Positions 13,339 to 63,619 of a stretch of 64,000 bases of DNA are shown here, in pieces. How positions within the stretch are numbered: position 1 is the first letter of the stretch; every line of letters starts with the position of its first letter. Source of the DNA: Tetradesmus obliquus (taxonomy: Eukaryota; Chlorophyta; Chlorophyceae; Sphaeropleales; Scenedesmaceae); contig CP126202.1 in assembly GCA_030272155.1 (NCBI GenBank), positions 4,981,501 to 5,045,500 of the forward strand. The letters run 5' to 3'. Below the pieces are notes generated by a model that saw only the letters and a list, made by a program, of their open reading frames with translations, did no database searches and was not told the origin of the DNA. Position numbers and translations under genes: made by a program.

Positions 13339-14728
13339 TCAGCTCGCGTCGCTGTGCCCCTGCTGGCCCATCACCACCCCCGCAGGCAGGCAGCGCAGCT
13401 TGGCCCCAATGGGCAGGTGGTCACTGGGGTGGGCCGCATTGGGCAGGCCCGTCCTGCTGTGCGGCAGCCGCCTATCTGCTGGCAGTGCGGGGTCCAGCGG
13501 CTGCAGCAGCGCTGTCACTGTGAGGGAGGCCGACACGAAGAGCCAGTCTAGGCTGCTCTCTAGCTGGGGCACCTGATGATGGAAGCAGCAGCGGCAGCAG
13601 CAGCAGCAGCAACGCTGTGACTGTGAGGGAGGCCGACACAAATAGCCAGTCGAGGCTGCTCTCTAGCTGCAGCACCTGCAGGGTCAGGGGCAGCAGCAGA
13701 ATTGGAGCAAATGCAGTCCGATCGTGATGTCGACTTGTCACTGCCATGTGTGCATTTTGGCAAGCAGGGCATGCTCAGCACGACACACCCCGCTGCAAGG
13801 CGACAAGCAACACAGCAGCAAGCGTCTGCAGTCATTGCTTTGTGCCATATGCGGTTCCAGCTGCCACCACCCGCACCTTGCGTGTGAAGGGCAGGGGCCG
13901 TGCTGCGTACGCATCCGCCAGCAGGTAGGGCTGGGCGGCATCACCTCCGCCCTCAGGCAATATGCGCACCTGCAGTGCACAGGACACAACACCACAGCAC
14001 ACACTTACTGGGTGAGCTTCAAGGCTTGCCGGGTGAGGTTCAAGGCGTTGTGGTTGGATGAAAATAGCAGGCAACACCATGCAGTTGTGTCCATAGCTTG
14101 GCGCAAGGTTGTTGCGCAGTGCAGCGCCACACCATTTGCATGCCCCACACCTGTGGCAGGTGTGGCTCCGTGTAGCCAGCAGGCAGCCAGCCGCTGCTGA
14201 GCAGCCTGCCCACCGCCTCCCCTTTGCTGCTGTTGAAGTCGCCTGCAACAACCACGTGGCACTCCTCAGGGGGCAGGCCTGCTGCTGTCTGGTGCTTCTG
14301 CAGGGACGCTAGCGCGCTGCGGGCCTGCAGCAGCATATGTGACGTGGCAGCAGTAGCAAAGGAGTTGCATCAGGCGGCACTGCAGCCAGGTGGTGCTGTC
14401 ACGGTCGCGACAACGCGCAGCGATCAGAAGGGCGGCGACAGATCAACAGCGCTCAACAGCCACTGACATCCTTTGCACAAGCCAGCAGCAGCAGCAGCAG
14501 CAGGAGCAGCAGCAGCAGCAGCAGCAGCGACACAACCCCACCTGCGCAAGGCGCTCTTGTGGCTTGTACGGGCTGCCCTCCAGGTGCAGGTTGGCCACAT
14601 ACATCAGCACAAGGCAGCAGCAGCAACAGCAGCAGCAGCAGCGACACAGCCCCACCTGTGCCAGGCGCTCCTGTGGCTTGTATGGGCTGCCCTCCAGGTG
14701 CAGGTTGGCCGCATACAACAGCACCAGG

Positions 14729-14765
<37 letters not shown>

Positions 14766-14849
14766 GACACAGCCCCACCTGTGCCAGGCGCTCCTGTGGC
14801 TTGTATGGGCTGCCCTCCAGGTGCAGGTTGGCCGCATACAACAGCACCA

Positions 14850-14895
<46 letters not shown>

Positions 14896-14975
14896 CAGTC
14901 CCACCTGTGCCAGGCGCTCCTGTGGCTTGTATGGGCTGCCCTCCAGGTGCAGGTTGGCCGCATACAACAGCACCA

Positions 14976-15021
<46 letters not shown>

Positions 15022-16113
15022 CAACCCCACCTGTGCCAGGCGCTCCTGTGGCTTGTAAGGGCTGCCCTCCAAGTGCAGGTTGGCTGCATACAACGCTTGT
15101 GTTGCTCCGGTGGAGTCGGTGAACAGGAAGGCTGCCAGCAGCGCCCTGCTGCGGCTTTCCTGCCACCACAGCTGCAGCTTGCCGGGCTTGAACAGCGTCA
15201 TGCACACCACCTGGTGAAGCGAGCAGCAGCAGCAGCAGCAGCCGTCAGAGCAGGGCATTGGCGGAAGTGAAGTACAGGAGGCTGCACAGCGTCTGTCTAT
15301 CTGCTGGCGTTACTATGGGCTATGCATGCATGCTGCCTTGAGCACCTTCAGCCAAGGATTGGCACTACCAGTCTCCACAGAGCAGTTGCTGAGAGTAAAG
15401 CCGATCCGCAGCGCCCCAGCATGCAGCAGTTGCTGCTGCAGCCGCAGGCGCTGCCGTGCCAGCTGCGCGGTGTCAGCTTCTGTCTCAGCTACGCTGGTCA
15501 CCTGCTTGCCCTTGCTATCCTGGTGGATGGCTGAGTAGCCGGCAGCAGCAGCAAATGCAAGGTACTCCGACAGCCTGAGAAACAACAGAAAAGGGCAACA
15601 GCAGCAGCAACAACAGCATCGGCTTAGCCAGCTCACGTTTTCGTGCAAGTGTGTGAGGCTTTGGTCAAGGAAAAGAAATTGCTGTCACTGCTGGCAAGGC
15701 GGTTCAGTTGCAGTTGCTGTGGGTGACACATAACGCACAGCATTGTGTGGCGCAGCGAAGAGCAAGCGCCCTGCTTCTGTTGCATGCAGAGTTGATCAGG
15801 CAAGTTGCCCAGCACAGCATCATCACTGGGCTGTCACTGTCGCTATGTCTGCACTCCCCGTAGCAGCAGCAGCAGCAGCAGCAGCACCACCACCAGTTGC
15901 AGCAGCCACTCTCAGGCTGACCGCTGCATGTCGTGCAGCGCGGCTGCCCGCCTCACCAGAGCACGTCCACCTCCTGCAGGCATACAATGTCTGCACTCCA
16001 CGCGCGAATCTGTTGCTGGATGAGCGGCCATCTGCAGCACATTCCACATCATTTAAAATGCGTTCGACCGGATCCATTCAACATTGTAAGCACAGCTTGG
16101 TACAGGTGCATTG

Positions 16114-16155
<42 letters not shown>

Positions 16156-16428: not shown

Positions 16429-16849
16429 CGCGACAGCAAGAGTTCACACGTCTTCTGCTGCCAAGCATGCGCACATCCGTATTAAATGTTTGTTTTATCA
16501 GCATAAGTAACGTGTTTAATGCTCCATAATTAGGACACCGCCAATGAGCGACGTGAAACCTCAAGAGGGTGCCCTTCCAAAGTCAGCCAGGAGTCTTGGT
16601 ATGAACAGCCTTCATCTGCGAACGAGGCCCGCCATAACTTAGCCCATAACCAGCAGAAGAAGCGAGATGACTAAAAATGCGAAAGTTTAAGCACTCTGCC
16701 TCGCGCCTTGACCGTTTCCCGACTGTAAGCTGGCGTCCAACGTTGCAGGCACGGCCACAGGGGGTACAGTTGCTGACGACATGCACGACCACCACACAAC
16801 AAAAACATAAGCACGAAACGAGCTTGCAAGAGGGAAACAAATCACCAGT
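16429..16849. other. Intergenic region between two minus-strand genes
   Basis: This lies between the 3' end of the biotin gene and the start of the EEP gene. It should hold the EEP promoter and 5' leader; no motif stands out. Confidence 0.35.
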
Positions 16850-17225
16850 CACACAATCACGCCATCACTACCGGAGGCGCCCCACACGCCCTCAGCATCA
16901 AGCACCTCCCGCCCACCCCCTCTGTCACTCGTGGGCGTCAGCATGCAGTACACCACAGGGCCCAGCGGCCGCAACGCAATGCCGCTGGCCCGCAGCGCTG
17001 TCGCTTGTGGGTGTCAGCATGCAGGACACCCATGTGACCACCGCAGGGCAGATGCCAAGTACCCAGAAATTACATTTCACACAATCACACCGTCACTGCC
17101 CGAAGCGCCCCACACTCCCTCAGCATCAAGCACCTCCCGCAGCTGCCCCAGCCACCACCCACCCACCCCTCTCTCACTCGTAGGCGTCAGCATGCAGTAC
17201 ACCACAGGGCCCAGCGGCCGCGCAG
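16850..17225 (-). repeat. Tandem copy of the biotin gene's C-terminal coding segment
   Basis: The real end of the biotin gene (about 17077-17225: RPLGPVVYCMLTPTSE, then REVLDAEGVWGASG and stop) is followed downstream by a second copy at about 16850-16985 with the same motifs, open to a stop at the same place. A third fragment of the middle part lies near 17000-17035. The copy could serve as an alternative last exon or be inert. Confidence 0.8.
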
Positions 17226-18858
17226 CCACCCCCCTGGCCCGCAATGCTGTCACCACATCTACTGCTGCACTACTGCCATAGCCTCCACTCACAGGCTGCC
17301 CGTCTGCCCCTACTGCCGCCAGCTCTACTGCTAGCACTGATCCCATCACTACAACCCCTTTGACTCGGGGGTGGCTGCTGAGGGCTGCTGCTGCTGACTC
17401 ATCCCACTGCGGCAGCAGCTGCCCACACGGCTGGCTGCAGCTGCAGCCAGAGCCCTCTCTGGTTCCATCCTCACTACTACTAATGCTGCTGCTGCTGCTG
17501 CTGCTGTTGCTAGAGCCGGATAAGGCCTTCTGGCAGCGGCCAGGCAGCTCAGGCGTGCACAGGTTTGGGTTGAGCTTGGGGTCCTGCAGTATGGCCAGGC
17601 TGGCTAATGCAGCCGCGCAGCCCAGGGGGTAGGCTGTGTAGGAGTGGCCATGCAGCAGCGCCTCAACCTGCGGGGCAAGGCATCAGCACGGCAGATCATG
17701 TTGCATACGCGATGAGTCAGCTTGCCTGCGTCAGGCAGGGGCAGTTGCAGTATGCTTGCAGCATGCAAGTCGCTGCTCGCTGGCACCAGGTGTGCATTGG
17801 TCAAGGTCAAGGCAGGGCACGAGGGCAGGAGCACACAGGCTCCATAAAGCAAGGTGAGCAACGTGTATGCCAGCACAGCAGCCACAATGCCATCACAATG
17901 CAGCGGCACAGTTTTGCACCGCACCTTGCTGGCCCCCTTGAACGCGTCAAACACCTCTTCACTGGCCAGCGTCACAGCCAGGGGGGCCACGCCGCCAGTC
18001 AGCAGCTTGGCGTAGCAGGCGATGTCTGGGGCCTGCCCCAGCAGCGAGCCTGCACTGGGGGCGCCCAGCCGCCAGCAGCCGGTGAAGACCTCGTCGTAAA
18101 TGACGGGTATCTTGTGCGCCCGCGCCACCTGCAGAGAGGTACATTGCAAAGACCAGCAAACATGGTGGCAGTCAGTCGAGTCAGTGAAGACCTCAACACA
18201 TTTGACAGGGATGCGGGCAGTTGTAAGTGTGCATGCGCACCAGTGCGGGTACTTTCTGGCAGTAGGTGTTTTAGTGTTCGCACAAGCCCAGCAGCATGCG
18301 TGAAGCAGTTGGCAATCGCCGGCAATGACGTCATGGGCCACATACGCAAGCTATAGCCATCACCTGCACCAGTGTTGCCTGGAACAGTGGGTCAGCCAGC
18401 AGCATGCCGCCAGCCCCCTGCAGCAGCGGCTCAATGAGCAGCGACCCCAGCCTCACGCCGCGCTGCTGCTCATGCTGCTGCAGCTGCTGCGTTATGTGCT
18501 GCTCGTACAGCTGGCGCAGGCCGGAGCTGCGGGGGTGGCAGCAGGTGCAGCGGCAATGTGCAGCTCAGTGAGAGGTGAAGCAAGCAGCAGGTGCTGACCT
18601 ACAGTGTGTCACAGGACAGCCGTTGAGTGTAGGGCACGCAACTGGCCAAGTACGTGCAATATATACAAGTTGACTTGTTAGTTGTACAGAAGTTGCAGCA
18701 AGGGCAGCATCCACCTTATTGAGCACAACCGACACTATTTGAAGGCAGTCTGCAGCCGCATGAGACTGCGGCCGCCCACGCACCTGCTGCGGCTGCCCAT
18801 GTCAAACGCCTCCTGCCTGCTGCCCCACGACCAGCCCTGCTCGCCACTGCTGCTGCTG

Positions 18859-18891
<33 letters not shown>

Positions 18892-19852: not shown

Positions 19853-20452
19853 AGGCAGCAGCAAAGGCAGCAGCAGCAGCAGCGGCAGCAGCAGCAGCAG
19901 CAAACCAGCAGCTGTTACTACGTCGTGGCTCCACTCCAGACATGCATATACAACAACGCACAGCAGGAGCACTAGTGAAAAGTGCACAGCTGCTGCAGTA
20001 TTACAGCGGGGCCCGCATCGGCCCTCCTGCAAACCCAGCGCTGCTGCTGCTGCTGCTGCTGCTGCACTCGCCTGCGCCTCACCTGCGGCCACATGACATG
20101 CATGTAACACACGTGCTTGCTGACCCCCTCTGCACGGTTGGTGGGTCACCCACCCAGCACTGCTGCTGCTGCTGCTGCTGCTGCACTCGCCTGCGCCTCA
20201 CCTGCGGCCACATGACGTGCATGTAGCGCCCCGCCGCTGCTGCCACCACCCTTGTCAACTCCAGCTGCAGCTGGCTGCTGGCAGCGGTCTGTGTCCACCA
20301 GCTGCTGGCGGCATCATGCAGGTGGGTCAGCACAGGGCCGCCGCTGCTGCTGCTGCTGCTGCCCTGCTGCTGCCTGTAGACCAGCCAGTCCTCGCCTGCC
20401 CTGCCGTCCACCACAGTCACCTCCCTGGCTGGGCAGAGCAGCCAGCCAGATG

Positions 20453-20492: not shown

Positions 20493-21659
20493 TGCGTGCC
20501 TGTTTGTGCCCGACCATAGAGTTAATGCAGCAAACGACACGTCGACTGAGCACTCCCAGCTGCTTTCGCACACAAGAGCATGCTTTCACACAGCACATAC
20601 ACGCACTAAGCTACTTCAGTGAGCGTACTTGCTTGCAATGCACTAGACACCTCGCTCACCCGTGTGGTAGCTTGGCGTGCTGCGTGAAGGGCCACCACAC
20701 GGCCGCTGCAGCAGCGCCAGGCGCTTCCCTCAGCCATGCCAGCCTTGCCTCATGCTGCTGCTGCAGCAGCGCCAGCAGGCCATCAAAGTGCTGCGCACTG
20801 GCGGCAAGCCATGCGGCCAGCTGCGGGTCGATGCCTGGGGCAGCGCTGCCGCCGCTGCTGGTGGCTGCTGCGGGCGGCTGGCACAGCGGCAGGCTCAGCA
20901 CAGGCAGGGGCTGGCCCAGCCTGCAGCACACAGGGCAGCGCACATGAACACACAAAACTTGAAAAAATTCTGCTGTGTCAACGGTTTTGTGCTTGCAGCT
21001 GCTGGCTGGCGCCTGGCCAGCTGGCCCCCCCTGCCCTGCAGCGGCACCACCCAGTGACAGCCAGCTCAGACAACTGCCCTACACTTTTGGACATACAGTT
21101 GTTGTGCCGCGGATAGCATGAAAGATGCACACAGCCCGCAGCTTCTGGCTGGTGCCTGGCATGCTGGCACCCCCTGCCCTGCTGCAGCAGCACCACTGAC
21201 ACAGGACACTTCACCACTGCCCACCTGTGCACTGCTGCATGCTGCAGGTGTGCCGCCACTGCCTCCACATTGTTCAGCCGGCCATCCGCCATCATGATCA
21301 CAGCAGCAGGGCTGTGCCCCCGCAGCAGCAGCGACTCGTATGCTGACAGCGTGGTGGCGATGCCTCCCAGGGCTGGGTCACCCACCAGCAGCGCTGGCAG
21401 GCCCAGAGGACGCAGCAGGTCGCCCTGCAGGAGGAGCAGCAGCAGCAGCAGAGGGTCTTGAAAATTCACAACTGGCAGGCGTATGCTTAGCTGGCTGGCA
21501 GAGCCCAGGGGATGACTGCTCAACAGACACCCCGCCCAGACTCCTGACGCATTCGCAGACAGCATGGTGCAGTTTCATCAACGCGATTTGCAGCCGGTTG
21601 AGCACAGTGCCCCAAACTGCACAGCATGCCGCAGCAGCTGTCGACACTGATTGGCTGCA

Positions 21660-23373: not shown

Positions 23374-25361
23374 ATGGCCGCTGAGCAGAAACCAGAATGG
23401 AATGGAGGAGAACTGCTGTTTGCAGGAGGCACAGATTGGGCCATGGTGCGCTGCACTGCAGCAGGCAGCGAGCACGGCGTGGAAAACTGCTGCTGAACTT
23501 TGTAGCCACTCTACTGCGTGCAGCTCGGCCGAGGTGGAGGAGGCAAAAGCAAGGCAAACCCAAAGGTAATTCGTCGCAATGGGATCACAGAATCTGTGCA
23601 CCCCCTGATACGCACGGGTGACTGAATACGAAAGGCTTCGAAATACGCTGCAGGATGAGCTGGAGCGCCAAGAAAAGTATCCAAACCTTGTGGAGCCACA
23701 CCGTTTAAAGGCGCTGCTGGTGGGTGTGCCGCTGGAGCTCGGGTTTGGCGCCAAGTTTGAAGCCACAGCAGCAGCAGAAGCACTAAGGCATGCAGAGCAT
23801 TACTTGCACCACTAAATCATCGCGTCCCTATGCAGGCACATGTTTAAAACCTGTTATTCTTGAGATCACAAAGCTTTTAGCTGCATGGCGCATCCTGTGC
23901 TGGCCCTCCGCATGCGCATGCCTGGCTGGTGCACTTATGGGTCTGATCTGCCCTGCCTGCTGTGCTGCGCTCTGCTTGCAGGACGTCAAGATAGAGTTCA
24001 TAGCAGCAGGCAGCGCAGCAGCACACTGCATAGTGGGCGATGTGAATGGCGTTTGCTACACCTGGGGGCGTAATGAGGTGCGGCGCCTGCTGCTGCTGCA
24101 GGGTGTGGTTGTGCTGCAGCCCTTACGCAGTGGCACGCATGCAGCCAGTGACGAGCGCATCTTAGTGGTCAAGGCAGCACCCTGATCCCGCAACACAGCA
24201 AATCACTTCAATTCGAAACACGGTGCAACACAAGAGCGGGTGCAGTAATGACAACAGCATAGCAATGACTGGCAGCGCTCACTGCCCACAGCTGTACATA
24301 GACAAACCAGCTCTCTGTAAGCCTGATTGCTGTTCCTTGCACGTGCTGTTGCCACCTGTTTGTGTGTTGACTGCTGCTGCTGCAGCGTGGCCAGCTGGGC
24401 CATGGCGACCTGCTGCAGCGCAGCGCACCCACAGTGGTGGCGGGGCTGACGGGGCAGCACGTGGTGGCAGGTGGGGGGCATGCCGGTGGCAGCAGCAGCA
24501 GCAGCAGTGGGCAGGGGTGCATGCTACTGAGGCAGCAACATGCAAGCAGCTGGAGAGGGTTGCTTCGCAATCGGCATGTGCTGTAGTTGACACCATGGCG
24601 CTTGCACCGTCAATGGTCAGTAGAGCTACCTGGATTGTGTCCTTGGCATGGCCCCAAGCGCCCTTTGTGTTCATCACCCTCACTTGCTTGATCCCGCTGC
24701 TGCTGCTGCTGCCGGTGGCGTGTGCCTGCAGCGGCTGGCGGCAAGCACCACACTGTGGTGGTCACAAAAGATGGCCACAGCTTCGCCTTTGGGCTCAACA
24801 GCCAGGTGAGCAGCAGCAGCAGCACAGGCAGCAACAGCAGGGGCAGCAGCAACAGGCAGCAACAGCAACAGCAGCGGGGGCAGGCGCAAGGGTCGGCGGG
24901 AGCAGCGAAGGCAACAGCTTTGGCTTCGGGCTCAACAGCCAGGTGCGGACGGAACCGCGGCAACAGCAGCACAGGCTGGGGCAGGGCCGGAGGTAGCAGC
25001 GGCAGCAGCAGCAGCAGCGGAGGCTGGCGGAAGCAGTGTCAGCAGAACATTTCACAGCAGGAAGATGCGGTGGTTGCTTTGCGAGCGCAGAGATGCCAGC
25101 AGCGGCTGTGACGTAACGCCGCCAGCCGGGATGGGCTCCAGGACCAGTTGCACGCCCTGTGGGGGAGGTTGACAGGTCGAGCAGCTGAGCTAGCCCCGCA
25201 CTGGTGCTGATGCACCCCATAGCACTTGTTCACACTGACAATGTGTTACTGCTGTGGCGCTGCGACTGTGGTGCCGCTGTGTGCTGTTTGCTGCTGCTGC
25301 TGCAGGGCCAGCTGGGCATTGGGTCCATCAAGAAGACCAAGGCCACGCCTGAGGGTGAGGT

Positions 25362-25393: not shown

Positions 25394-26734
25394 CCACACC
25401 ACTGGTGTGTAGGGTACTCGCCTGTGCCTCTGCATCTCAGTGCTCTGTTTCTTTGCATGATCAGCGGCTGCTCCTGTCACACCTCTGCATCATGTGCACC
25501 TAGCAGCGGCAGCTCCAGCAGGCAGTTGCCATTGCAAAAGCGTGTTGCAGTGCCGCCGTTTTGACATGCTGCCTCACTTTGCCCCTGCATGCCTCACTGC
25601 TTCTGCGCCGCATCATGCCTGCGCCTGCCCCTGCAGACCTGCAGCTGTCCCCTGTGAAGGCGTTGGTTGACAATGCTTGGTTTACTGTTCTCTGCTGCGC
25701 CGCTGTTCACTGTTGCCGTGACTTGTTGCCCTGCAGACCTGCAGCTGTCACCTGTGAAGGCACTGGTGGACAACGCAGCCAAGGTGTCATGCGGTGCTGA
25801 CTTCACCGCGTGGCTCAGCAAGACAGGCCAGGTGCGGCAGAAAGCACCCGCTTTTTGCTGTGTCATGGACAATGCAGCCATGCAGCCCGGAGTTCACTGC
25901 GTGGCTCACCAAGACGGGCCACGTGCAGGGCGGCCGCGCGGGATGCAGCAGAGCCCTAGATTGACCAGCTGTGGTTCACAGCTTGCTGCGCTGAACGTGC
26001 TGCTGCTGCTGCTGCCGTTGCCGTGTGCTGCTGCTGCTGCTGCTGCTGCCGTAGGTGTGGACAGCGGGCAACCCCCAGTATGGTCAGCTGGGTGGCGGCA
26101 CCGACCACATGTACAACGCCAAGGACAGTGAGTGGCACGGCTGGATCGCTGCTAGGCACTGCTGGCAGAGCACACACTGCTGCCTTTGATGGATCCATGC
26201 TCACGGCAGCAACGGCCCTGCACATGCGTTGCAATTCTGCAATTGTCAGCACAGACGACATGGAAGATATGATGCATGCATGCACGCCAACGTAACAGAT
26301 TGGCACGCAGCAATGGCGGCAGCCTTGCACTGCCCTTGCGCCTGTCCCTTCCACCTGCCTGATCACGTGATGCTACCTGCCTGCCTGTTCTGCTGCTGCT
26401 GCTGCTGCTGCCACCCCCAGCCTCAATTAAGATCATGTACGAGCCGCAGCCCACACCCAGGGCAGTGGAGGGGCTGCTGGGCGTGACAGTGAAGCAGGTG
26501 CGCTGGCACGCAGCAGGTGCTTGTCATAGTATGTTCTTATGTCCTGGGCAGTGGAGGGGCTGCTGGGCGTGACAGTGAAGCAGGTGGGGCGCTGGCTTGG
26601 CTGGGGCGCATTGGCTCACAGTGCTATGCATAGCATATGCCACACTGTGTTGCTGGCAGCAAGGGCCAAGCTGGCATGCATCTAAATGTTCAGTGTCTGC
26701 GGATTGGCTGTATGCTTATGGTTTCTGTGCCTCT

Positions 26735-29519: not shown

Positions 29520-29780
29520 GCGCAACCCACAGACGCAGCTGCGCCCCGCACCTCTCCTTGCAGCAGCCCAGCAGGGTGTTGTTGCATGATATCCTAGTAC
29601 CACATCATCTTCGTCTCCTGCAGAGCTGCCACACGCACCTCTCCTTGCGGCTGCCCAGCAGTGTGCTGGCCACGCTGGCCAGCGTGGGCAGCGCCCGCCG
29701 CGCACTGGCTGCGCCGCCCGGCGCCGCGCCGCTGCCGCCCGCCGCCCCCGCCAGCGTGAGCGTGTGTGTCTTGCTGAGCA
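29520..29780 (-). pseudogene. Orphan exon fragment, unknown family
   Basis: The minus strand reads ARRALPTLASVASTLLGS and then RKERCVWQL (about 29620-29720). Downstream, near 29545-29575, a second piece reads LLGCCKERCGAQL. This looks like one exon edge copied twice, as in neighbouring genes, but no intact gene body was found around it. Confidence 0.3.
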
Positions 29781-31588: not shown

Positions 31589-32194
31589 GCAAACTAAGGC
31601 AAACTAAGGCAAACTAGGGCTCTGCTGCTTCTGCAATCCTTACGGCTGACAAGGACAGAAACATGCAGCACGGAGGAAAGAGCTGAGAAACCAGCGCTGT
31701 GACACCCAACACATGCAACATGTCCTTGACAGAAACTGGAAAATCGACAACTGCTGACAGCACAACATGCAGAGGCAGGAAGGTCAACCAGAGCGGGGCG
31801 CCAGTACAATGCGCAGCTGCGCTGGATCAGAGCACAGAAACGGGTGATTGCCAGGCACCGCAACCCGCCAAGTAGCGGGCGCTGCCTCTGTTGCCACAAA
31901 ATCAGCAAGCAACTCCCAAAACCTTAACACCGCTTGCTGCTTAGCCTCCTGTAACATCTGCGCTACCAGCTGTTGTCGCTGTTGTTGTTGATGCAGCTGC
32001 TGCTGCTGTCGGCGCTGCTCTACCAGCTGATTATGCTGTTGCTGCGCAGCAGTGAGAGCTGCATGCTGTAGTGTATCAGTAATAAGCGCCTGGCCCGCCG
32101 GCAGCGGCGGTGGCTGCTGCACGGCCAGGGCGGGCGGCGGGATGCTCAGCTTATTAGCATCGTCACCCCCTTTTTGTTTGTGTTTGTTACACAT
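31589..32194 (-). mobile_element. Second LINE-type 3' fragment with decamer tail
   Basis: A Gln-rich frame (32194-31784) ends in VLRFWELLADFVATEAAPAT and GNHPFL, related to FWDALADFAATARVP and QQPFI of the neighbouring fragment. About 165 bp past the stop, three short units of the type AGTTTGCCTT (plus-strand positions 31589-31618) form a tail like those that end LINE copies. The N-terminal part overlaps the LTR-like repeat at 32179, so the frame may be a junction product. Confidence 0.45.
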
Positions 32195-33913: not shown

Positions 33914-33963
33914 AAACCGCATTAATTTTTCTGAAACCAGTGCATGGCAGCACATTTGACCCC

Positions 33964-47547: not shown

Positions 47548-48241
47548 TCAGGCCAGCACGCGCTGCAGGATGCCGTTGCCAAACAGTGCCACGCCCAGCG
47601 CCAGCACCAGCAGCGCCACGGCACGCTGCGCCCCGCTGCCCTTGGCGCTGCCAGGGAATGCTGCGCTGAGGTGCTTGCCCCCCACCAGCGCCAGCCCGAT
47701 CAGGCCGGGCACCACAAACGCCTGCACCGTGCTGGCCTGCATGGGGAAAAGGAGGGAGGGGCAAGAAGGGAACAGGTGTGAAGAAGAGGCGGAGCATTTG
47801 GAGCACGCAGCAAACACACGACTATGCCTGCGTGGTGATATGCAGCAGCACAGGCAACAGCAGCATGCCACGGCTACCCATGCATCCCCTGCTTACTACA
47901 GCTGAGCTGGCGGCTGCTGCCACAGCACAGTGACAAAACATGAGCAGTCCCTGCAGCCGGCCACGCACCAGGTCTCCCACGATGCTCAAGGCAGCCCAGA
48001 TGTCCGGCACCAGCACAGCAGTGGCCACAGTGCTGGCCAGGATGCCATACGTCAGCAGCGGGTAGTTTTTGGACTCGATCTCGGCTGTCTTGGCTGCCTT
48101 GGCCGGCCCGCTGCCTGCTGCTGCTAGGGTTTTGCCCCACAGCAGCTCGATGAGGCAGGTGCGCAGCGGGAACATGAGCAGCGCAAAGCTTCCCAGCAGC
48201 GACACCAGGAAGCCCCCGCGCACCAGCACGCTCAACACCTG

Positions 48242-48275: not shown

Positions 48276-48363
48276 GCTCAGCAGCAGCGGGAACATGAGC
48301 AGCGCAAAGCTGCCCAGCAGCGACACCAGGAAGCCGCCACGCACCAGCACACTCAACACCTGG

Positions 48364-48406
<43 letters not shown>

Positions 48407-51400
48407 GATGGTAGCAGCAGCAGCATCAGCAGGAGGCTCAGCAGCGACACCAGGAAGCCGCCACGCATCAGCACACTCAACACCTGGAATAACAACAGCA
48501 GCAGCAGCAGCAGGGTGGTGAGAATGCATGAGACATTGGGTGTATGAGGCAATGCGTGCAGTTCAGAATGGCTTTCAGGTCATGACGTGCAGCAGGCCAT
48601 GTGGCTTCTGCACATCGCCCTCAGCCGCTGCAACACCAATCACCACAGCCAGCCGCTGCAACACCAATCACCACAGCCAGCCGCTGCAACACCAATCACC
48701 ACAGCCAGCCGCTGCAACACCAATCACCACAGCCAGCCGCTGCAACACCAATCACCACAGCCAGCCGCTGCCTCACCCCACCCGCTCACCGCTGCCGCCT
48801 GGCTGCCGATGAGTGGCGCCATGCCTGAGGCGCTGAGGTTGTTCAGGATGTTGCTGGATACACCAGGGCCAAATGCAGCCACGCTGCCCAGCCCCAGCAC
48901 CAGGAAGATGGCACAGCCCAACGCCAGCGAGCCTGCAGGGAGGGGGCGAAGGGTCAGAGTGGCAGCGCAGCAGTGCAAATAGGCGCGAAAGGTCAGGCAG
49001 ACAACACAGGGGCATCACGGCAGCATCCATGCTGCAGTGGTGTAAGCATCGACCACCGGACTCGTGCTCACTGGGTGGGACCATGAAACAGTCGATGGGC
49101 TTGGCGGACCGCAGAGATACGCATGCACAAACATGCATTCACAAACATGCGTCTGCCCGGCAGATGGGGCCCATCCATCAACACCAAGCACGCACCCGCG
49201 CAGACGGCTTTCATCTCCTGCACGCTGTATGGCGTCAGCATGCCCATGATGCCGTGGATGGACTGGTGGCCCACACAGTGTTACCGCGGCTAGCGGTTTA
49301 CCGCAAATCTAGCGGAATGAGGCCTTGCGGTGGCCGCAGGCCACCGCTAGGCACCGCAAGTATATGATAGAAAAGTCAGATCGAGAAAGCAAAAAGCGGA
49401 CTGTGTTCAGCTCACCGAGAGCAGCAGTTTGGCACCCTCAAAAGTTACCTGCACCCCTGGATATACTAGCTACCCTACTAGGCCTCTATGCACAGCACTT
49501 AGCCAGATGTGAGTAATGTGGACTAGAACAAGGGGCCTGCTTGACTGCTTTCACTGCTGAAGTGCTTAAAAATGCAGTGGAATTGGGCACTGCAACCCTT
49601 GAAGTCTCGCCAGCTTCTGGGGCTTCGCCCCAGACCCCACCAGGGGGGGCTATCAGCGGCCCCCCTGGACCCCCCGCCGCGTTTTCCCCTGCTCCAAAAT
49701 AACAAGTTCCGGAATTCGAAGTCAGTCCCGCGGTAACCCTGGGCCCACATGCCCAAACCCTAATACCCTAACACCTAAAACACACAACGGGCCTGCTTGC
49801 GCCACAACCTGCGCTGCGTCCCTGTCAACCCCACCCTGCACCACACCTTGTCTAGGACTCTCAGCACCCCTCCCCCCCTCCCCCACGCACCCGCGCAGAC
49901 CGCCTTCATCTCCTGCACGCTGTAGGGCGCCAGCATGCCCATGATGCCGTGGATGGACTGGTGGCCCACGTAGCAGTTGAGGATGATGGGCAGCACGCCA
50001 GCCATGCCCATGGCGATCTTGAGGGGCGTGTCGCCAAAGGCGGCAAGGTTGGGCGCTGCAAGAGGCACGCAACGCAGCAGGCAGGCAAAGTGTAAGGCAG
50101 GCATTTGCAAGACAGGTTTGTTGTTCGTTTGGGCAGTACGCCAGCCATGCCCATCGTGATCTTCAGCGGCGTGTCGCCAAAGGCAGCAAGGTTGGGGGCT
50201 GCATGCACACAAAGCAACAGGCGGGCAGAGTGTGAATCAGGCTGGTTTGTTTAAGCAGCACGCCTGCCATGCCCATTGCAACCTTGAGAGGGGTGTCACC
50301 AAAGGCAGCCAGGTTTGGGGCTGATTTTCTTGCAGGTGCAAGGGTATGCTGGGTGTGCGCCGATCTCCTTGAGCAGGCATTTGTATGTGGCTGGCCAACA
50401 GGGCTGCTTTGCACAAACATGCGATGTCCCAAACCCCGCAAGACGCGCAGATGCTCACAACAAAAGCGGCCGCGTCGTCTTCCTGACACGTGTGCCACCC
50501 TGCGATGACCGCGGTGCTGAACAACACCCAAGTTGATACGCAAGGAAGCTGTGTACACTGGGCGTCAGCCGGAACAATACTTCAGCTCTCAAATTCGCCT
50601 CACCCACTGGCGGCGCGTGTGCCACGCCCGTGATGACCGCGGTGAGCCCCAGCAGCCCCGCAGCAGCCGCCAGCAGCATCACCGCGCCCACTCCCAGCAC
50701 GTTGAACACGGACAGCTTGGAGATGTCGCTGCGAGGGAAAAAGACAAGGAAGAAAGGGAGGGCAGGTGCATCAGCATCAGCAGCATCAGCAGCATGGGTG
50801 AGCACAGTGTGCTGCGCTGCTTTCGAGGACTGCTGAGCACTTGCGGCCGTGGTTGGCACAAGCAAGTGAAAAGGCCTGACCAAGTCGCAGGCTGATGAGC
50901 TGCAGGAGTGATGCTGGACCTTGAAAGCAACCCTAACAGCAAGCATGCGGCAATCCACGCCTGCATCGCTGCTACAGTCTGGTGCACAAACAGCAGGTCA
51001 AGCGATGACTGCTGCCACCAGCCTCTGAAACAAGATTCGCAGAACAATCTAGTAGTGACTGCTGCAGCCCACTCACCGCAGCGCCACCAGTGGCGCGCAC
51101 ACGCCCGCTGCCACCGCCAGGATGCAGTTGCTGCGCACCAACGCTGGGCCGGACTTGATGCCTGCCACCTCACTGATCAAGCCATTGGCGGCACCGGGGG
51201 CGCCTGAGGGGACGAGGTGCGGGCGGACAAGTAAGGGCGGGGTGAGCGTGTGCGCGGCAGCAAGCAGCAGGGCGAAAAGGGTTGAGCAGTTGGGCCAGTG
51301 ACAGCAGAGGAGACCTTGTTGCGGCCCACAAGCAATGCCGACGCTGCCTGCCCTACCAGTGCTAGGCAGGAGCTGCAGCATGCAGCCGAGAAACTGCACA

Positions 51401-51635
51401 CTTCCCTGCGTCTACCTCCTCCCCGACACGCGCCGACAGAACTCACAATAATTTGTCGCCCCCCCAAACACCCACCTGCCAGGATGTCTCCGATCACCAC
51501 CAGGTACACCGCCATGACGCCGAAGCAGAAGCCAAACAGCGCCGCCTGCAGCAGCGCAGAGCCAGCAGGGCCCACCAGGCGGCCCGCCAGCCCCGCATAG
51601 CTGGCCTCACCAGTCTCAGCGGAGCCCTGGGAAGT

Positions 51636-51683: not shown

Positions 51684-53332
51684 TGTCAAATATGCGCGGC
51701 TGAGCAGCATGACGGGCTCCGCGTCGCTGGCCTCACCAGTCTCAGCAGAGCCCTGCAGTGGCAGCGTGCAGCAGCAGCAGCAGAAGAATGTCAAGGATGT
51801 GCAGTTGAGCATGATAATGAGGCAGCGAAGCAGGGGAGCACAGGGCAGGTGGTGCTGCCCCTCCTGCTGCTGGCTTGTTTGCTGCTGCAGCAGCGCAGAC
51901 ATGAAGCCTTCCATCAGCTGGCGCAGGCGAGACGCCCTGGGCGAAGCATCTGCACCGCCGCCCGCTGCGCTGCGCTGCCGCCACTGCCCCTGCCCCTGCC
52001 CTGGGCCGCACCTCGGCAGCATTCACGCGGCTGCATGTTCCAGGCACCACAATCAACACGGCATATCCTCATGCGCTGCCGCTGCCAATGCTGCCCCCTC
52101 ACTTGACATAAAGGAAGCACTGCTGCTCCCCACCTGCACCATGACTGTGTTGGTCCAGTAGGTGAGCCCCGCCACTCCCAGCAGGCTGCCGCATGCTGCC
52201 ACCCAGCCCAGCAGGTTGAACGCGTGGGGGATGGGCATCATGCCTGGGTGTTGAACACGAGGGTGTACGGGCAGCAGGGTGACGGGGTGGAGCGAACAGC
52301 GCGTATGCGAGCAGTGCAGTGGCTTGCTGATGTGCATGCAAGCAGCCGTGTACAGCGGTGGTGACAGGGGCTGCACAGTGCTGTAGCTGCTCGTCATTGC
52401 GGGGGTGTGGTTGCCACCTGCAAACAGCACCTACGCTGCAGTGCCTCTTTCAGCTGCACAACCACAACGTTGATGAAGCAGTGTTGCTGCTGGTGGTGCA
52501 GGGTCCCTACTGTTGGCGTATCGGCTCACGCCACCAGCTGCTGCTGTACACCACCACCAGCTGCACGGTGCAGCTCGCACTGCTGTTGCCGTGCTGTTGT
52601 GCTAGCAGCAAGCTGCCGCAAACCGCCAAATATTGTATTGTTGTGAGTACAAGCCCACTGCTGCAGCTGCGGCAGGCTGCACCGCTGCAGTAGGCACGGG
52701 CCTAGCCCTGCCAGCTGCAGCCCTGCCAGCCGCAGCGTGTCAGCCCCACCTGCTCCGATGATGGCCTTGGTCAGCGCAAAAGTGCAGTCCCAGTAGTTGG
52801 ACTTGCCTGACTCGGGCTTGGCGAATGCGGCAGCGTCGCCTGCCGCAGCAGCAGCAGTCCAGCTTTGGCATGTTGTGCGCAGACAGTTGTGTCCAACCCA
52901 GTTTGCTTGCACAACTCTGACGCTGTGAGCTGGTTGGTGATGTGCCACCACTGGTCTCATCACCATGCATACAGTCTGCTTTAGGTATGCTTGCCCAGCA
53001 TTTGTGTGCTGGCAGCGTGGGTTGTCTGCTAGGGCTTGCAACAGCTGGCAGTGCAACCACCCTCTGGGGACTGCAGCAGGATCGCGGGATCCCGCCTTAC
53101 CTGCTGCTGAAAAGGCAACTACTCGTCGTTTGTAGTTCGTTGATGGCCAAGGCGTCTGTGCAATGTTGACCACTACTCTGCTGGCCTCCCTGTCATAGTG
53201 CGTGCTGGCCTTTGCTGCTGCTGCAGCACGGGCGGCCTTGAGCCCCGCCGGCTGAATCACGGGTAGCTTATTCATGTAATTAGGCTTTGTATACGTCCTG
53301 GACGACAGCGGCTGCGCACGTAGGGACTGCAT
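47548..53332 (-). CDS. Amino-acid transporter, AAAP (SLC38/AVT-like) family
   Basis: Ten exons (53101-53332, 52750-52839, 52134-52243, 51476-51626, 51077-51203, 50604-50728, 49891-50055, 48790-48932, 47969-48238, 47548-47736) give about 533 residues, in phase throughout. The first membrane helix has the family signature (FALTKAIIGAGMMPIPHAF, then NLLGWVAACGSLLG). Later come ETGEASYAGLAGRLVGPAG, GFCFGVMAVYLVVIGDILAG, VLPIILNCYVGHQSIHGIMG, the loop PYSVQEMKAVCAGSLALG, and a last helix (VALLVLALGVALFGNGIL). The family moves neutral or cationic amino acids across plasma or vacuolar membranes, driven by protons or sodium; the substrate cannot be read from sequence. The ~75-residue N-terminus is soluble and basic. 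Partial exon copies and a MITE lie in the introns. It is divergent with the TPR gene. Confidence 0.88.
48172..48488 (-). repeat. Three copies of a transporter exon start
   Basis: The segment for VLSVLVRGGFLVSLLGSFAL with its acceptor occurs at about 48172-48238 (functional), 48290-48358 and 48440-48484. Each is preceded on the sense strand by a CTG tract. The two extra copies sit in the upstream intron. Confidence 0.8.
48624..48775. repeat. 28-bp minisatellite
   Basis: The unit CGCTGCAACACCAATCACCA plus CAGCCAGC is repeated about five and a half times with almost no variation, inside an intron of the transporter gene. Confidence 0.9.
49187..49275 (-). repeat. Copy of the 3' half of transporter exon 7
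   Basis: It reads GHQSIHGIMGMLTPYSVQEM followed by KAVCAG and a GTGCGT donor, matching the functional exon at 49891-49980 (which has LAPYSVQEM). It is cut at its 5' side by the MITE that begins at 49276. Confidence 0.8.
49276..49741. mobile_element. hAT-type MITE, 466 bp
   Basis: The left end CAGTGTTACCGCGG and the reverse complement of the right end CAGGGTTACCGCGG match at 13 of 14 positions. The 8 bp on each side are identical (GGCCCACA at 49268-49275 and 49742-49749). An 8-bp target duplication with ends starting CAG is the signature of hAT transposons. There is no transposase, so the element is non-autonomous. It sits in intron 7 of the transporter gene, inside a duplicated exon fragment. 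Confidence 0.88.
50122..50326 (-). repeat. Two extra copies of the 5' half of transporter exon 7
   Basis: The functional exon starts PNLAAFGDTPLKIAMGMAGV at 50055. Upstream copies lie at about 50135-50199 (PNLAAFGDTPLKITMGMAG) and 50256-50322 (PNLAAFGDTPLKVAMGMAG), each with its own acceptor. Together with the copy at 49187, this exon has three fragments around it. Confidence 0.8.
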
Positions 53333-59380: not shown

Positions 59381-59422
59381 AGGGCAACCACAGCAAACCC
59401 ACCTTGGCTACATCAGAAAACC

Positions 59423-59715
59423 GTACCCTGCAAAATTCGGCCGTATGGGCCTGTACTTTGTACCTACGCCATTGCTGAACAGCGCAAATGTAGCCGTACT
59501 TTGTACCTCTGTGTACTCAAGGCCCTGGCTTAGGTACACCGAGCTTACCCCCACCACGTACTTTGACGCTCAAGAGTTTAGGGTTTCTCAGGGTTTTGGT
59601 ACTCTGAAGTACGCTTAAATACACACAAGTACACACCAGGCATACCTTTGTACCTCAGTTTCACCTGCACTGGCCGCCAGGCCCGTACTTTGTACCTCCG
59701 CGTACCTTCAAGTAC
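59423..59715. repeat. GTAC-rich block
   Basis: GTAC occurs at 59423, 59453, 59460, 59496, 59503, 59513, 59534, 59558, 59599, 59609, 59629, 59650, 59684, 59692, 59702 and 59712, that is 16 times in 293 bp where about one is expected by chance. GTACTTTGTACCT recurs three times, but the spacing is irregular, so it is not a simple tandem repeat. Confidence 0.85.
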
Positions 59716-59855
59716 AAGTTTGCACCTACTCATCGGAAACGGAACTGGCATCCCAAATATAGTATAATGCTGCAGGCAGATCCCCTAAGTACACAGAGCT
59801 ACATGCCCGCTAACACACCTGCTACAGTACTTTAGCGTAGTCACGACCCCCTTGC

Positions 59856-60135
59856 AAGTGCTGTAGCTGTCATATGACATAGCACTGCAAAATACTGGCC
59901 TTTCACTGTCATCATGTTCGTAACCATGTTACCAAATTAACACCACAGCAGCAACGCCGACATATAGTACAATACTTTACTGCCACTCAGACCAAGTAGA
60001 CATCACGATCCACGGCCACCGCATTTATCGCTATAATGTCATGCATGGTGGCGGCCGTGGCTACACATTCCGACGCGCTGCACGCCTGCAGCCCAACCTG
60101 GTCAGCGCCAGCCGCTGCTCCCATGGGTGACGTGC
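59856..60135. other. Intergenic region
   Basis: This lies between the TIR element and the 3' end of the polymerase gene on the minus strand. Nothing else was recognised. Confidence 0.4.
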
Positions 60136-61874
60136 CTACAAGGGCCCCTCCCCCTGCTGCGGCATGAGCCTGCCCAGGCCGCCCGCCGCCACCAGCAGCG
60201 CCGCCAGCTGGCGCTCAGCGGCAGCAGCAGACAGCCGCGGTGACGCCAGCTGGCGCAGCAGCTGGGACAGCAGCACTGGCGGTTCATCCAGCTGCACAGG
60301 CGCTGCTGCTGTTGTATCGCACGCTGCTGCAAGCTTGCGCTTTGGCCGCCTCTGGGTGGCAGCAGCAGCAACAGATGGGCCATGCAGAGGCTGCTGCTGT
60401 TGCTGCTGGTATTGCTGCGGCTTGTTTAGCTGAGCTGGCAAGATGTTACCTTGTGCTGCTGCTGCGCCAACACCAGCTGCGGATGCTGCCTGCTGCTCCA
60501 CCAACACACCATCGTCGTCTTCAATTTGTTGCCGAGCCTGCTGTTGATGCGGTTGCTGCTCCTGTTGTAGACTTTGCAGCTCAGTTTGAAGCAGCTGCTG
60601 TTGCTGTGTGGTGGCTGCATGAGCTTGCCTGGGCAGGCTGACCGCAACGCTAGGTGCTGTGTCATTTTGAGGTGCTGCTGGCGCTGCGAATGGCAGTGCT
60701 GCTGCTGGTGCAGTGGCTGCAGCTTCCACTGCTGCTGCCACTGCTGCTGGGGGTGGTCCTGCTGCTGCCGTGGTGAAGCGCCGGATGCTGCCCGAGGCTG
60801 CTGCTGCCTCGTAGGGCCCAAAGTTGCTGGCAGTCAGGTTGAGGATGGTCACGGGGTGGCCGGCGGGCAGAGGTGCCACCAGCACCTGGCAGGCAGCAGA
60901 GCAGGCAGCAGCGCAGCCAGACAGGTGAGCGGCACTGTCATCCAGCTGTGCAAGGCAAATTCCCATGCAGCCAACAGCAAACAGGAGCAAACACGCACAA
61001 GTGCGCGCAAGTCAGACAGTGGGCTGTGACATGACACTGTGCAGTATCCATGTCAGCAGCCAAAAAGGCATGGCAAGATGCTGCTGGAGCTGCTGCTGCT
61101 GGCCCTACCTGAGCCAGGCCTGCCGCCAGGTTGACAACTGCAGCATGCAGCGCAGAGCCCGCAGCGTAGCGCTTCTCTCCCACCACGCCTGGCGCATCAA
61201 AGGCAGCAGCAGGGGCAGCAGGCGCCTGCGCTGCACCCTTTGCCCCAGCCCCACTCACGCCGCCGCCATTGATGCCTGCAGCAACCTTGGCAGGACTGTT
61301 TGTTGCCGCTGCTGCTGGTGCTGGTGCTGCTGCTGCTGCTGCTGCCAGTGCTGGCGTGGGGAAGGTGGTGCTGCGTGTGGCGCTGCGTGGCGGGTTGCCG
61401 CTGGTAGTCAGCGTCAGCGCCAGCTTGCGCGGCCAGCGGTCTTCAACATGCCTGGAGCGGAACACAGAGAGGTAGCAGAAGCCCAGATATAAACAAGAGC
61501 AAAGGTGCAGCAGCTGATGTGACACTCAACCTAGAGTAAGAAATGGAACTGACTAACGCATGACGATCAAGCTGGAGCAGTAATGCAAAGGTTCCCTCCC
61601 TCCTACAGTAGTACAGCCGCTTGTTTGCCCAAACAAGCAGCCCATATCACCCCCCCCCTCCACCTGTCCAGCATCACGCGCCCCAGCAGGTCGCCAGCCA
61701 TGGCCCCCAGCACAGCAGCCAGCCGGGGCGCAGTGTCAGCAGCGCCAGTCAGCAGCGGCACCAGCATGCCACCCCCGGCAGCATTAGAGGCCTGCCCCGC
61801 AATGGGCCCGCGGCCCGCCGCCTGCAGGTTGGGCGGCAGCGGGCGCATCTGTGGCGTGAGCGTCATCTGCACCT

Positions 61875-61912
<38 letters not shown>

Positions 61913-63619
61913 TGCACACGGGGTGTGACGAGTGTGCCACTTGTGTGGGCTCTCTGTGCTGGCATGTCGCAACACGCATCTGCACTGCACTTGCTGCTTG
62001 ATGCCGAGGAGCTATGCGGCTTTGGACTGCTCATTCATCTCTGCTGCACTGCTGATACCATGACACCGCTCAAATGCCAGCACGACCCTCTCAAATATGC
62101 TGGTGAGTCAGGCCACGTTCACCAATCCTCGCAGCCGTCTTCCCCGATCCCAAACACATCAACCTGCAGGCTCTTGGCGGGCCCCTTGTCCACCACCCTG
62201 GCCTCGTCCCGCCCCCAGCCCGCCTCAGCCAGCCGCCCAGCCAGCCGCGCCTGCTGCTGCCCGCCCAGCAGCGAGGCCAGGCTAGTGGCGGAGTGGCCCT
62301 GCAGCTGCTGAGCAGTGGTGATGCCCAGGCGCTGCAGCGCGGGAGCAACGCCGCCCAGGCCTGCATGCAGGGGGTAGGTGGGTAAGGCATAATTCAGGTT
62401 GGCAACCATGGCCACCTGGGCACGCACAGCACGGCGCAGGATAACCACTTGCAGCATGGAGTCGATGCTATTACAGTAGGAGGTGTGTTTACCAAGCTGG
62501 GAGCCCAAGGTTGGCAGCTGCAGCCATTCATGACCTTCAGCACCCCTGACTTCAGCAGCTCTCCGCCCCCCCCCCCCCCCCACCTCCCCCACACACACTG
62601 GGCTGCCTGTCTCACCTGGCAGCTTGTCCACTGGCGTGGCGGCCAGCAGCGCCTGCACTGCCGCCACGCCGCCCACCACGTGCACGCCGTCAGGCTTGGC
62701 TGCCCTGCTGGCCAGCTTGGCCAGCAGCTTGTTGGGGGCCACACCTACTGACACAGTCAGCCCCAGCTGTGCCTTGGCTGCGGCGCGCACTGCAGCAGCC
62801 ATGTCAGCACCCAAGGAGCAGTCCCAGGTGGCGGCGGCGTTGGCCGCCAGCCAGGCAGGCATATCGGGCAGGGCCACGCCAGTGCTGCCTCCGAGGCCCT
62901 GCAGAAGCAAGGAGGGAGACACAAGTGTCAACAGCGGCTTGTGCCAAGAAAAGGCGCTGAGCGACCACAATGTCCTGCATACAGTGATGCACTGTGAATT
63001 CAAAACCCCTGCGGGGTTTATGCCATTTAGCATGCTGCGCCGTGTGCTGTGCGTCCACCTGTGCTGCAAACTGCTGCCCAGCGCCCTGCCCCCCAGCCAC
63101 CAGCAGGTAAGCCTCATCAATGGAGGCCTTCTCCACCACCGCCACACACGACGCAGCAGCAGGCGGCAGCCCTGAGGACAGCAGCCGCATCAGCGCAGCA
63201 GACGCCTCCCTGCAAACGGGTGGCAAGTGAAATGCAGCACGTGCCAGAAAAAGACGGCAGTGCAGTGGGCGCTGTCTCTCTGTGTTCGGGTTTGAGGTGC
63301 TGCACATGCAGCCGCATCAGCGCAGCAGACGCCTCCCTGCGAGGCGGCGGCAGCGCAAGGGTGATACAGGAGTTGTGCTGAATGCGGGTGGACAAGCCAT
63401 CTGCAACTGCATGCACGATGGGCTGACAGCTGCGCCGCGTGAAGCCCCAGCAGGGACCTCCAGGTGACAAGCAGTGACCCACATACTGTGGCAAGTGTAT
63501 ACGCAATATGGAAACTAGTCAACGCTCCCTCACCTGTATGGCCTGTATGACACGCGCCCGTCCGGCTCAGTGAACACGTGCACCAGCAGCCCACCAGCTG
63601 CAGATAGCAGCACGCGCGC
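60136..63619 (-). CDS. Y-family translesion DNA polymerase (eta/iota-like), partial
   Basis: Exons at 63534-63619, 63059-63209, 62616-62898, about 62178-62360, 61664-61872, 61109-61451 and 60136-60945 join in phase. Family motifs appear in order: VSYRPYREASAALM (pol eta has KYREASVEVM), EKASIDEAYLLVAG with the catalytic Asp-Glu, SVGVAPNKLLAKLASRAAKP, LQRLGITTAQQLQGH (helix-hairpin-helix region), then the little-finger pieces RWPRKLALTLTTSGNPP and HPVTILNLTASNFGP. Such enzymes copy past UV and other DNA lesions. The N-terminal catalytic piece (the DMDCF region) lies beyond the right edge. The C-terminus is a long Gln/Ala-rich tail with a basic patch (RRPKRKLA); no ubiquitin-binding zinc finger or PCNA-binding motif was recognised in it. 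ASIDEAY favours eta over iota, but the call is not certain. Confidence 0.82.
63311..63345 (-). repeat. Decoy copy of a polymerase exon start
   Basis: The first ~30 bp of the exon at 63059-63209 (codons for EASAALMRL) are repeated upstream in the intron at about 63311-63340. The copy follows a CAG-type acceptor context that differs from the functional one. Confidence 0.65.

Follow-up and report, generated by a model that had tools for sequence, protein, structure and literature searches.

Exon-edge copies in the window

The window, meaning the whole 64-kb stretch of DNA analysed here, carries genes for an EEP nuclease (Pfam Exo_endo_phos), BIO3-BIO1 (AAA_26 and Aminotran_3), an RCC2-like protein (RCC1), a transporter (Aa_trans) and, at 63 kb, a Y-family polymerase (IMS). 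Our hand-built models gave uninterrupted reading frames for BIO3-BIO1 (with one acceptor moved), for the RCC2-like gene over its twelve modelled exons and for the transporter; the EEP model has one ambiguous exon 3/4 junction. The copies and their surroundings are as follows.

13511-13572, minus strand: EEP last exon, acceptor-side edge (original; gene model, Pfam Exo_endo_phos)
13614-13676, minus strand: spare EEP last-exon edge with AG acceptor; 4 synonymous codon changes, 1 nonsynonymous (self-BLAST/alignment)
14542-14966, minus strand: array of four spare EEP exon 4 donor edges (14542-14603, 14656-14717, 14779-14840, 14905-14966) with CTG tracts between
15031-15092, minus strand: EEP exon 4 donor-side edge (original; gene model)
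16839-17002, minus strand: downstream copy of the BIO3-BIO1 coding end (self-BLAST/alignment)
17067-17251, minus strand: 3' end of the final BIO3-BIO1 coding exon, stop codon included (original; gene model)
20083-20107, minus strand: spare BIO exon 6 donor edge; original 20202-20226
20995-21110, minus strand: BIO exon 4 donor edge plus intron, in a decayed copy that has lost the donor; original 21138-21256; absent from the original prediction
24914-24942, plus strand: spare RCC2-like exon 3 donor edge; original 24778-24805
25637-25678, plus strand: spare RCC2-like exon 5 acceptor edge; original 25737-25778; 6 synonymous codon changes, 0 nonsynonymous
25888-25922, plus strand: spare RCC2-like exon 5 donor edge; original 25797-25831; not previously noted
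26543-26583, plus strand: spare RCC2-like exon 7 donor edge; original 26457-26497
29540-29672, no strand: local pair 29540-29585/29627-29672, 35 of 46 positions matching (alignment)
48284-48487, minus strand: two spare transporter exon 9 acceptor edges (48284-48363, 48439-48487); original 48163-48238
49189-49274, minus strand: spare transporter exon 7 donor edge; original 49884-49969
49275-49883, no strand: interspersed repeat of 609 bp between the 49189 copy and its source; 14 genome matches including itself (13 others)
50130-50323, minus strand: two spare transporter exon 7 acceptor edges (50130-50198, 50255-50323); original 49987-50055
51716-51755, minus strand: spare transporter exon 4 acceptor edge; original 51590-51629; also new
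63308-63352, minus strand: spare acceptor edge in the Y-family polymerase gene; original 63181-63225 (self-BLAST; Pfam IMS)

Eleven of the 12 places named in the original prediction proved, by self-BLAST or direct alignment, to be direct local copies of the end of a coding exon. Those expected in the EEP gene at 13545 and 14527 (four copies), in the transporter at 48172 (two), 49187 and 50122 (two), and in the polymerase gene at 63311 were all present. In the RCC2-like gene the copies placed at 24780, 25636 and 26455 exist, but 26455 is the original and its spare lies at 26543-26583. Both BIO3-BIO1 places, 16850 and 20041, are real copies; the former, however, repeats the 3' end of the final coding exon, stop codon included, and not a splice edge. 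Since this copy is 21 bases shorter in total (18 plus 3 in the BLAST alignment), frame and stop are preserved, and 13 of its 17 mismatches fall at third codon positions. The supposed orphan fragment at 29520 is a real local copy, well above chance (35/46 against a best of 27 among 300 random pieces), but its label as an exon edge has no gene behind it. The claim that each copy takes an exon edge with its splice site holds at most places, 16850 and 29520 being the exceptions, and the proposed distance of about 150 bp from the original is exceeded by the 49187 copy, 695 bp from its source.

Gene models and copy detection

The gene finder was trained under supervision on the four hand-built genes plus confident exons, and reached a sensitivity of 0.97 and a specificity of 0.91, with 32 of 41 exons exact, when scored on these same four training genes, which are not independent. 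Unsupervised training drifted to CAG tracts and tiny exons and was abandoned. Independent gene support came from Pfam, for nine sample genes and four hold-out genes, a hit supporting the gene and not each of its exons. We dropped alignments longer than 320 bases, spacings above 800 (above 300 in the case of clusters), exonic pieces shorter than 15-20 bases, copies called exons by the gene finder and masked CAG tracts, as well as borders with more than 6 masked letters in 36 bases or an intron below 60 bases.

Frequent, direct and local copies throughout the genome

In 17 genes with a hand-built model or a Pfam match, the outermost 36 exonic bases recurred in the adjacent intron at 59 of 255 borders (23%), donors (30/128) and acceptors (29/127) being equally affected, and 16 of the 17 genes had at least one such border. 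About one in four exon borders of the tested genes therefore has a slightly decayed spare copy in the neighbouring intron. The same 36-nt test in these genes found no reverse-complement copy (0/255), 2 copies at 220 borders in the intron flanking the opposite end of the exon, and 4 at 255 borders within the first 400 bases of the other introns of the same gene. The original prediction had proposed aligning introns to their flanking exons with shuffled controls. When compared against introns of other loci, 47 of 203 borders had a copy in their own adjacent intron, versus none at border positions in about 2,030 border searches elsewhere (≤0.1% at other positions). Local direct alignments numbered 33 in the window and 165 in 20 stretches of 10 kb from the same genome, versus a single one in 42 fourth-order Markov shuffles; only 5 inverted alignments accompanied these 198 direct ones. 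In a 50-kb hold-out fetched later, four Pfam-supported genes had copies at 12 of their 52 borders, and direct alignments outnumbered inverted ones by 70 to 2. A larger hold-out count, 18/57, was set aside: it includes a repetitive low-complexity prediction, and 3/25 remained positive 100 bases inside the exon.

Genome-wide there are 2.65 clusters per 10 kb, with a spacing of 106-242 bases between copy and source (10th to 90th percentile of clusters), and the copies range from identical to more than 30% diverged. As local duplications also occur far from exons (261/2,750 windows), the process is not confined to genes. Of 69 copies at modelled borders, 68 concern splice sites, and GT or AG is retained in 60 of the 69 with near-original site scores; many introns therefore hold putative splice sites that resemble the true ones. 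These data bear out the idea of a recurrent local copying process acting across unrelated genes. The term "tandem" may not hold in its strict sense, with only 11 of 54 clusters abutting or having a flank-homologous spacer in a test whose power is uncalibrated and in which masked tracts and later indels may hide such an arrangement. Gene content and genome size suggest that the genome is a green alga's. We found no published description of such a pattern in an alga, in a literature short of most subscription journals.

CTG tracts, assembly and mobile elements as possible sources

The original prediction saw the copies as often lying next to CTG tracts and proposed that repeats perhaps drive the copying through template switching; slippage at CTG/CAG tracts was considered along with it. 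Some copies in the window do abut a tract, including the EEP exon 4 array and transporter exon 9. Among the borders compared, however, a CTG tract lay within 150 bp of 11 of 52 borders with a copy and of 100 of 323 without (Fisher P = 0.19), so that proximity does not exceed background, and several copies inspected with their flanks have no tract at either end. Repeat-driven copying is highly improbable.

The copies could also be an assembly artefact, in which unmerged contig ends or mixed haplotypes were placed side by side. All of this work is based on a single genome assembly, and the third-position differences in the window resemble those of two functional alleles. Against such an origin, which we regard as highly improbable, stand a divergence that is graded between 0 and over 30%, the presence of at least three distinct versions in some arrays, frameshifting indels and a neutral-like spectrum over all predictions. 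Moreover, no second genomic copy was found of the part of the EEP gene searched, of the BIO 3' end or of transporter exon 7; elsewhere in the genome the EEP part matched CAG tracts only.

An introner-like mobile element, or one with long target-site duplications, could leave paired copies, as the 49189/49884 pair flanking an interspersed repeat might suggest. An insert shared across loci, as such an element would leave, was not found in 23 spacers, the repeat at 49275-49883 being the only exception found. Searched against the window and the 20 stretches, 18 of the 23 spacers hit only themselves and 5 gave only local, weak or low-complexity hits; one spacer searched genome-wide was unique apart from its local array. 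Copy length also varies between loci, and a mobile element appears highly improbable.

Proposed short local duplication and the excess at exon borders

The explanation we favour, with some reservation, is that ordinary short local direct duplications arise at a high rate and persist where the exon is left intact by one of the copies. It builds on what was observed directly: the copies themselves, their locality, direction, genome-wide spread and range of ages, and a roughly neutral divergence when all predicted genes are taken together. Segments of some 40-250 bases would be duplicated either adjacent to the source or at most a few hundred bases away, probably by break repair or replication slippage, processes expected to give copies that are direct and near the source, as those found here are. 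When a duplication spans a border, the copy joined to the exon body would still supply the splice site that is presumably used, and the gene would keep working; the other copy would fall inside the intron and decay as mostly unused DNA, long retaining splice-site-like sequence. Duplications wholly within exons would mostly be purged by selection, while wholly intronic ones are observed less often, which we attribute mainly to the lack of a selection-protected copy.

Clusters spanning a border are commoner than predicted, 31 of 36 compared to a fraction of 0.49 under random placement (P = 3.6e-6). An earlier placement null with aligned length as its unit had overstated this excess, and was replaced by one using the spacing, compact introns and supported genes. 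Simulated detection bias stayed small up to T = 0.2; for short local duplication to account for the border excess, the protection of one copy would have to produce it, and we count the excess as a point against that explanation.

Divergence of the spare copies

Selection might instead maintain many spare copies for a function or regulatory role in splicing, for instance as alternative or competing sites, while other duplications vanish. The border excess and the retention of GT or AG at near-original scores are both in line with this idea, and the divergence of the copies bears on it in both directions.

Across 57 sample copies, taken from all predicted exons whether Pfam-supported or not, mismatch rates were 0.105, 0.101 and 0.203 at codon positions 1, 2 and 3, and 0.235 in the aligned intron. 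These are close to T, T, 2T and 2T, which fits one copy constrained and the other free. Third positions held 233 of 470 differences over all sample predictions and 98 of 204 when spare copies in the sample were compared with one another; of the 66 exonic indels, 49 are not multiples of three, and the spacings of border clusters are random for reading frame (13, 13 and 15 modulo 3). Over all predicted genes, then, the divergence is roughly that expected of DNA without a use, and our first impression that all copies are protein-constrained was not borne out. Alternative exons would be expected to give frame-compatible, coding-constrained copies, and neither spacing nor indels follow that pattern, although the window subset deviates.

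In the window, third positions held 57 of 80 differences (P = 9e-5 versus 0.5, copies of one edge not being independent), more than free decay allows, so the window copies run against it; between spare copies of one edge, 18 of 19 differences were at third positions. Loci differ among themselves (P = 0.0015). Restricting the data to Pfam-supported genes also moves them away from neutrality. In supported copies with aligned intron, positions 1 and 2 diverged at about half the intron-implied rate, both in the discovery set (74/869 against half of 0.299) and in the hold-out, while neutral simulation gives 1.15-1.3 times that rate. Copies in Pfam-supported genes, most of all those in the window, show less divergence at positions 1 and 2 than unused DNA would; we can explain this only in part, and it too speaks against the reading that we favour.

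In 60 Pfam-supported discovery copies, the 36 splice-adjacent bases were about three times less diverged at positions 1 and 2 than the rest. This contrast was absent from the hold-out (21 copies from five predicted genes, of which four had been Pfam-tested), and we do not retain it as a general feature. An apparent sharp cut-off at the splice site was likewise discarded, being largely reproduced by neutral simulation (T = 0.14; 138 exon-edge hits and 26 intron hits of 220 in the ungapped 36-nt test).

Taken with the frame-breaking indels, the frame-blind spacing and the neutral-like sample totals, retention as selected splice elements is possible but unlikely. We are more doubtful still that the spare edges, instead of being debris, are a large conserved stock of intronic replicas of exon ends that act as splice-site decoys or spares, so that edges born by duplication would regularly take part in regulating splicing in this lineage.

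Comparison with known systems

In exon duplication and in mutually exclusive exons, exon sequence is repeated close to its source, as here; unlike those, the present copies are partial, comprise one edge and ignore the reading frame. Schiml et al. (2016) reportedly described small tandem duplications from break repair in plants. PMC8355091 also deals with small tandem duplications arising from break repair. Our copies are similarly short, direct and local, but differ in that 43 of 54 clusters have a spacer not detectably flank-homologous (in a test of uncalibrated power).

Intron gain by tandem duplication, in which a direct duplication over an exon border gives two copies of a splice site, is treated in PMC3443670, which cites the cases of Rogers, of Hellsten and of Gao & Lynch. 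The classical type of such gain has AGGT inside the duplicated exonic segment, and a new intron is spliced between the copies. In the potato case, splice signals are inherited from the parental intron; as in that type of gain, the duplicated pieces here cross the intron-exon border. Unlike in those intron gains, the spare copy here appears to lie unused within the intron, and no new intron is demonstrated. The known cases concern single genes; here about a quarter of tested borders are affected.

Arguments on splice-site choice and on duplication-born introns usually rest on single genes. Should a spare copy accompany about a quarter of exon borders, this genome offers a natural experiment in how splicing chooses the true site over a near-identical neighbour, and in the frequency with which duplications give rise to new introns or isoforms. 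Gene prediction in this genome will mis-call exons, as copies are read through as coding: a simple gene finder did so at EEP exon 4, at transporter exon 4 and at two predicted loci, L010 and L023.

Exon ends are copied within the genes of the window

The genome around the window comprises 104.66 Mb in 17 contigs. Four genes were modelled by hand, encoding an Exo_endo_phos (EEP) nuclease, a BIO3-BIO1 fusion, an RCC2-like protein and an amino-acid transporter, and all four have Pfam support. The transporter and BIO3-BIO1 models run from start to stop in a single uninterrupted frame (one BIO acceptor was repositioned afterwards), the frame of the RCC2-like gene is uninterrupted throughout its twelve modelled exons, and the exon 3/4 junction of the EEP model is provisional. 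The Y-family polymerase at 63 kb is backed by the Pfam family IMS.

The original prediction placed partial copies of exon edges close to their sources in at least six unrelated genes, and direct alignment or self-BLAST identified copies of coding exon ends at 11 of the 12 named places. That at 16850 is a copy of a coding end, but it includes the stop codon and no splice edge; that at 29520 is a genuine local copy (35/46, where 300 random pieces reached 27 at most) but lacks support from any gene. Three additional copies lie at 25888, 51716 and 20995. Searches with transporter exon 7, the 3' end of BIO and part of EEP found no second copy of these source exons in the genome; elsewhere EEP gave only CAG-tract matches. 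One BIO1 feature is a possible alternative last exon:

Window 16839-17260: second BIO1 coding end, protein-preserving, downstream of the stop codon, with a weaker local match at 17003-17066

Border copies are found throughout the genome

With CAG-like tracts masked, we compared the window and 20 stretches of 10 kb, spread across 14 contigs, with themselves. This yielded 33 rows of local direct repeats in the window and 165 in the stretches, compared with 5 inverted rows in total, and 42 Markov shuffles produced a single row between them. Four of the 20 stretches had no row or one. Grouping gave 68 clusters with a median spacing of 137 bases; their density per 10 kb was 2.65 in the stretches and 2.34 in the window. 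The observation is confirmed and extends beyond the window.

The comparison of exon edges with introns, as originally proposed, was performed on 203 borders from genes modelled by hand or supported by a Pfam hit, a copy being 36 bases with at least 27 matching. A copy was present in the adjacent intron at 47 borders; some 2,030 control searches gave none. The proportion fell from 23% at the border to 0/100 at 100 bases inside the exon. Including four hold-out genes (from a further 50 kb), the count was 59/255, divided between donors (30/128) and acceptors (29/127) and involving 16 of 17 genes. Edge copies were rare in the intron beyond the exon's other end (2/220) and in the first 400 bases of the same gene's other introns (4/255), and reverse-complement copies were absent from all 255 borders. 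Bases just inside the intron had copies at 10/290, less often than deep intron (180/984) or DNA far from exons (261/2,750). According to simulation, this border contrast is mostly what would be expected if both copies of an intronic pair change freely.

In compact supported genes 31 of 36 clusters include a border, against 0.49 expected under random placement (P = 3.6e-6); leaving out L026, one of the sampled stretches, the count is 24/28. Among copies at least 90% identical it is 9/12 versus 0.44 (P = 0.03). As long as T stays under 0.2, detection bias is negligible, T being the divergence at codon positions 1 and 2 when just one of the two copies is in use, for which position 3 and intron should reach about 2T. 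A border pair would have one member under selective protection and an intron-only pair none; such protection should favour border copies and may account for some or all of an excess that otherwise sits poorly with our best reading.

Neither CTG tracts nor a shared mobile element explain the copies

The single repeat-driven process originally envisaged, which would go on generating donors and acceptors, is supported as regards recurrent, genome-wide copying, but not as regards its CTG drive: a tract lies within 150 bases of 11/52 copy-bearing borders and of 100/323 borders without a copy. The spacers likewise lend no support to a shared mobile element. Of 23 searched against the window and the 20 stretches, 18 matched nothing but themselves and 5 gave only local, weak or low-complexity matches; one spacer searched genome-wide was unique except for a local array. 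The exception is an interspersed repeat:

Window 49275-49883: 609-bp repeat inside the transporter gene, with relatives spanning about 465 bases (92-95%) on contigs C13, C4 and C6 and shorter ones elsewhere

Many spare copies resemble unused DNA

Across all exons predicted in the sample, a total that takes in predictions without Pfam support, 57 copies gave divergences of 0.105, 0.101 and 0.203 at codon positions 1, 2 and 3, and 0.235 in the intron, close to the expected T, T, 2T and 2T. Frame-breaking indels make up 49 of 66 in the exonic part, cluster spacings disregard the frame (13, 13, 15), and GT or AG is retained in 60/69 copies. By these measures many of the spare copies resemble unused DNA that differs in age from copy to copy, which also argues against an assembly artefact.

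Selection could instead keep many of the copies as working or regulatory splice elements, which we consider rather unlikely. Consistent with it, third positions hold 57 of 80 differences in the window (P = 9e-5 against 0.5, copies of one edge not being independent), and the BIO copy retains its frame and stop. Where spare copies of the same edge differ among themselves, third positions account for 18/19 differences in the window and 98/204 in the sample; loci are heterogeneous (P = 0.0015), and the Pfam-supported subset departs from the neutral-like total. In 60 supported discovery copies, positions 1 and 2 were three times less diverged in the 36 splice-adjacent bases than in the rest (54/1,304 versus 69/547, alignment ends trimmed). 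This slowdown is absent from the neutral simulation; however, it was not seen in the 21-copy hold-out (35 differences near, 19 far, at equal rates). Supported copies with aligned intron, in both discovery and hold-out sets, diverged at positions 1 and 2 roughly half as fast as their introns imply (arithmetic on counts), whereas the neutral simulation gave 1.15-1.3 times the intron-based rate, suggesting that some spare copies may be under partial constraint. That conserved replicas of exon ends form a regular layer of splicing regulation, as decoys or spare sites, seems improbable.

The best reading, in our view somewhat better than an even bet, is frequent short local direct duplication leaving mostly unused intronic copies. 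Such duplications would arise locally and often, by break repair or replication slippage, and those that survive would be the ones after which the exon body still has a functional edge. A strict head-to-tail structure was seen in just 11/54 clusters by a test of uncalibrated power, which would imply that insertion of the copied piece a short distance away, or later indels between the copies, is common.

In published accounts, small tandem duplications form at break ends (PMC8355091), a duplication across an intron-exon border created a new intron in potato (PMC4974935), and tandem duplication is termed a prevalent route of intron gain (PMC3443670). Our copies share with the first their short, local and direct nature, and with the second the crossing of the intron-exon border. 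They differ from these cases in occurring at about one quarter of the tested borders and in that many seem to be unused.

Other repeats

Four further repeats were seen in the window and in two sampled stretches, L010 and L028:

Window 7879-9374: long CAG-rich repeat region, period about 390
Window 32170-32701 and 33386-33914: 532-bp direct repeat, 98% identity, 1.2 kb apart, in none of the curated genes
L028 1-3958 and 4086-6039: long repeat arrays with units of about 275 bp and 350 bp, 84-97% identity
L010 3631-3893: P-loop exon of an EFTUD2-like (Snu114) gene present as a tandem triplicate whose copies are separated by Ala-rich runs

The gene finder reads through the L010 exon copies and Ala-rich runs, and this triplication is possibly a new intron arising through duplication.
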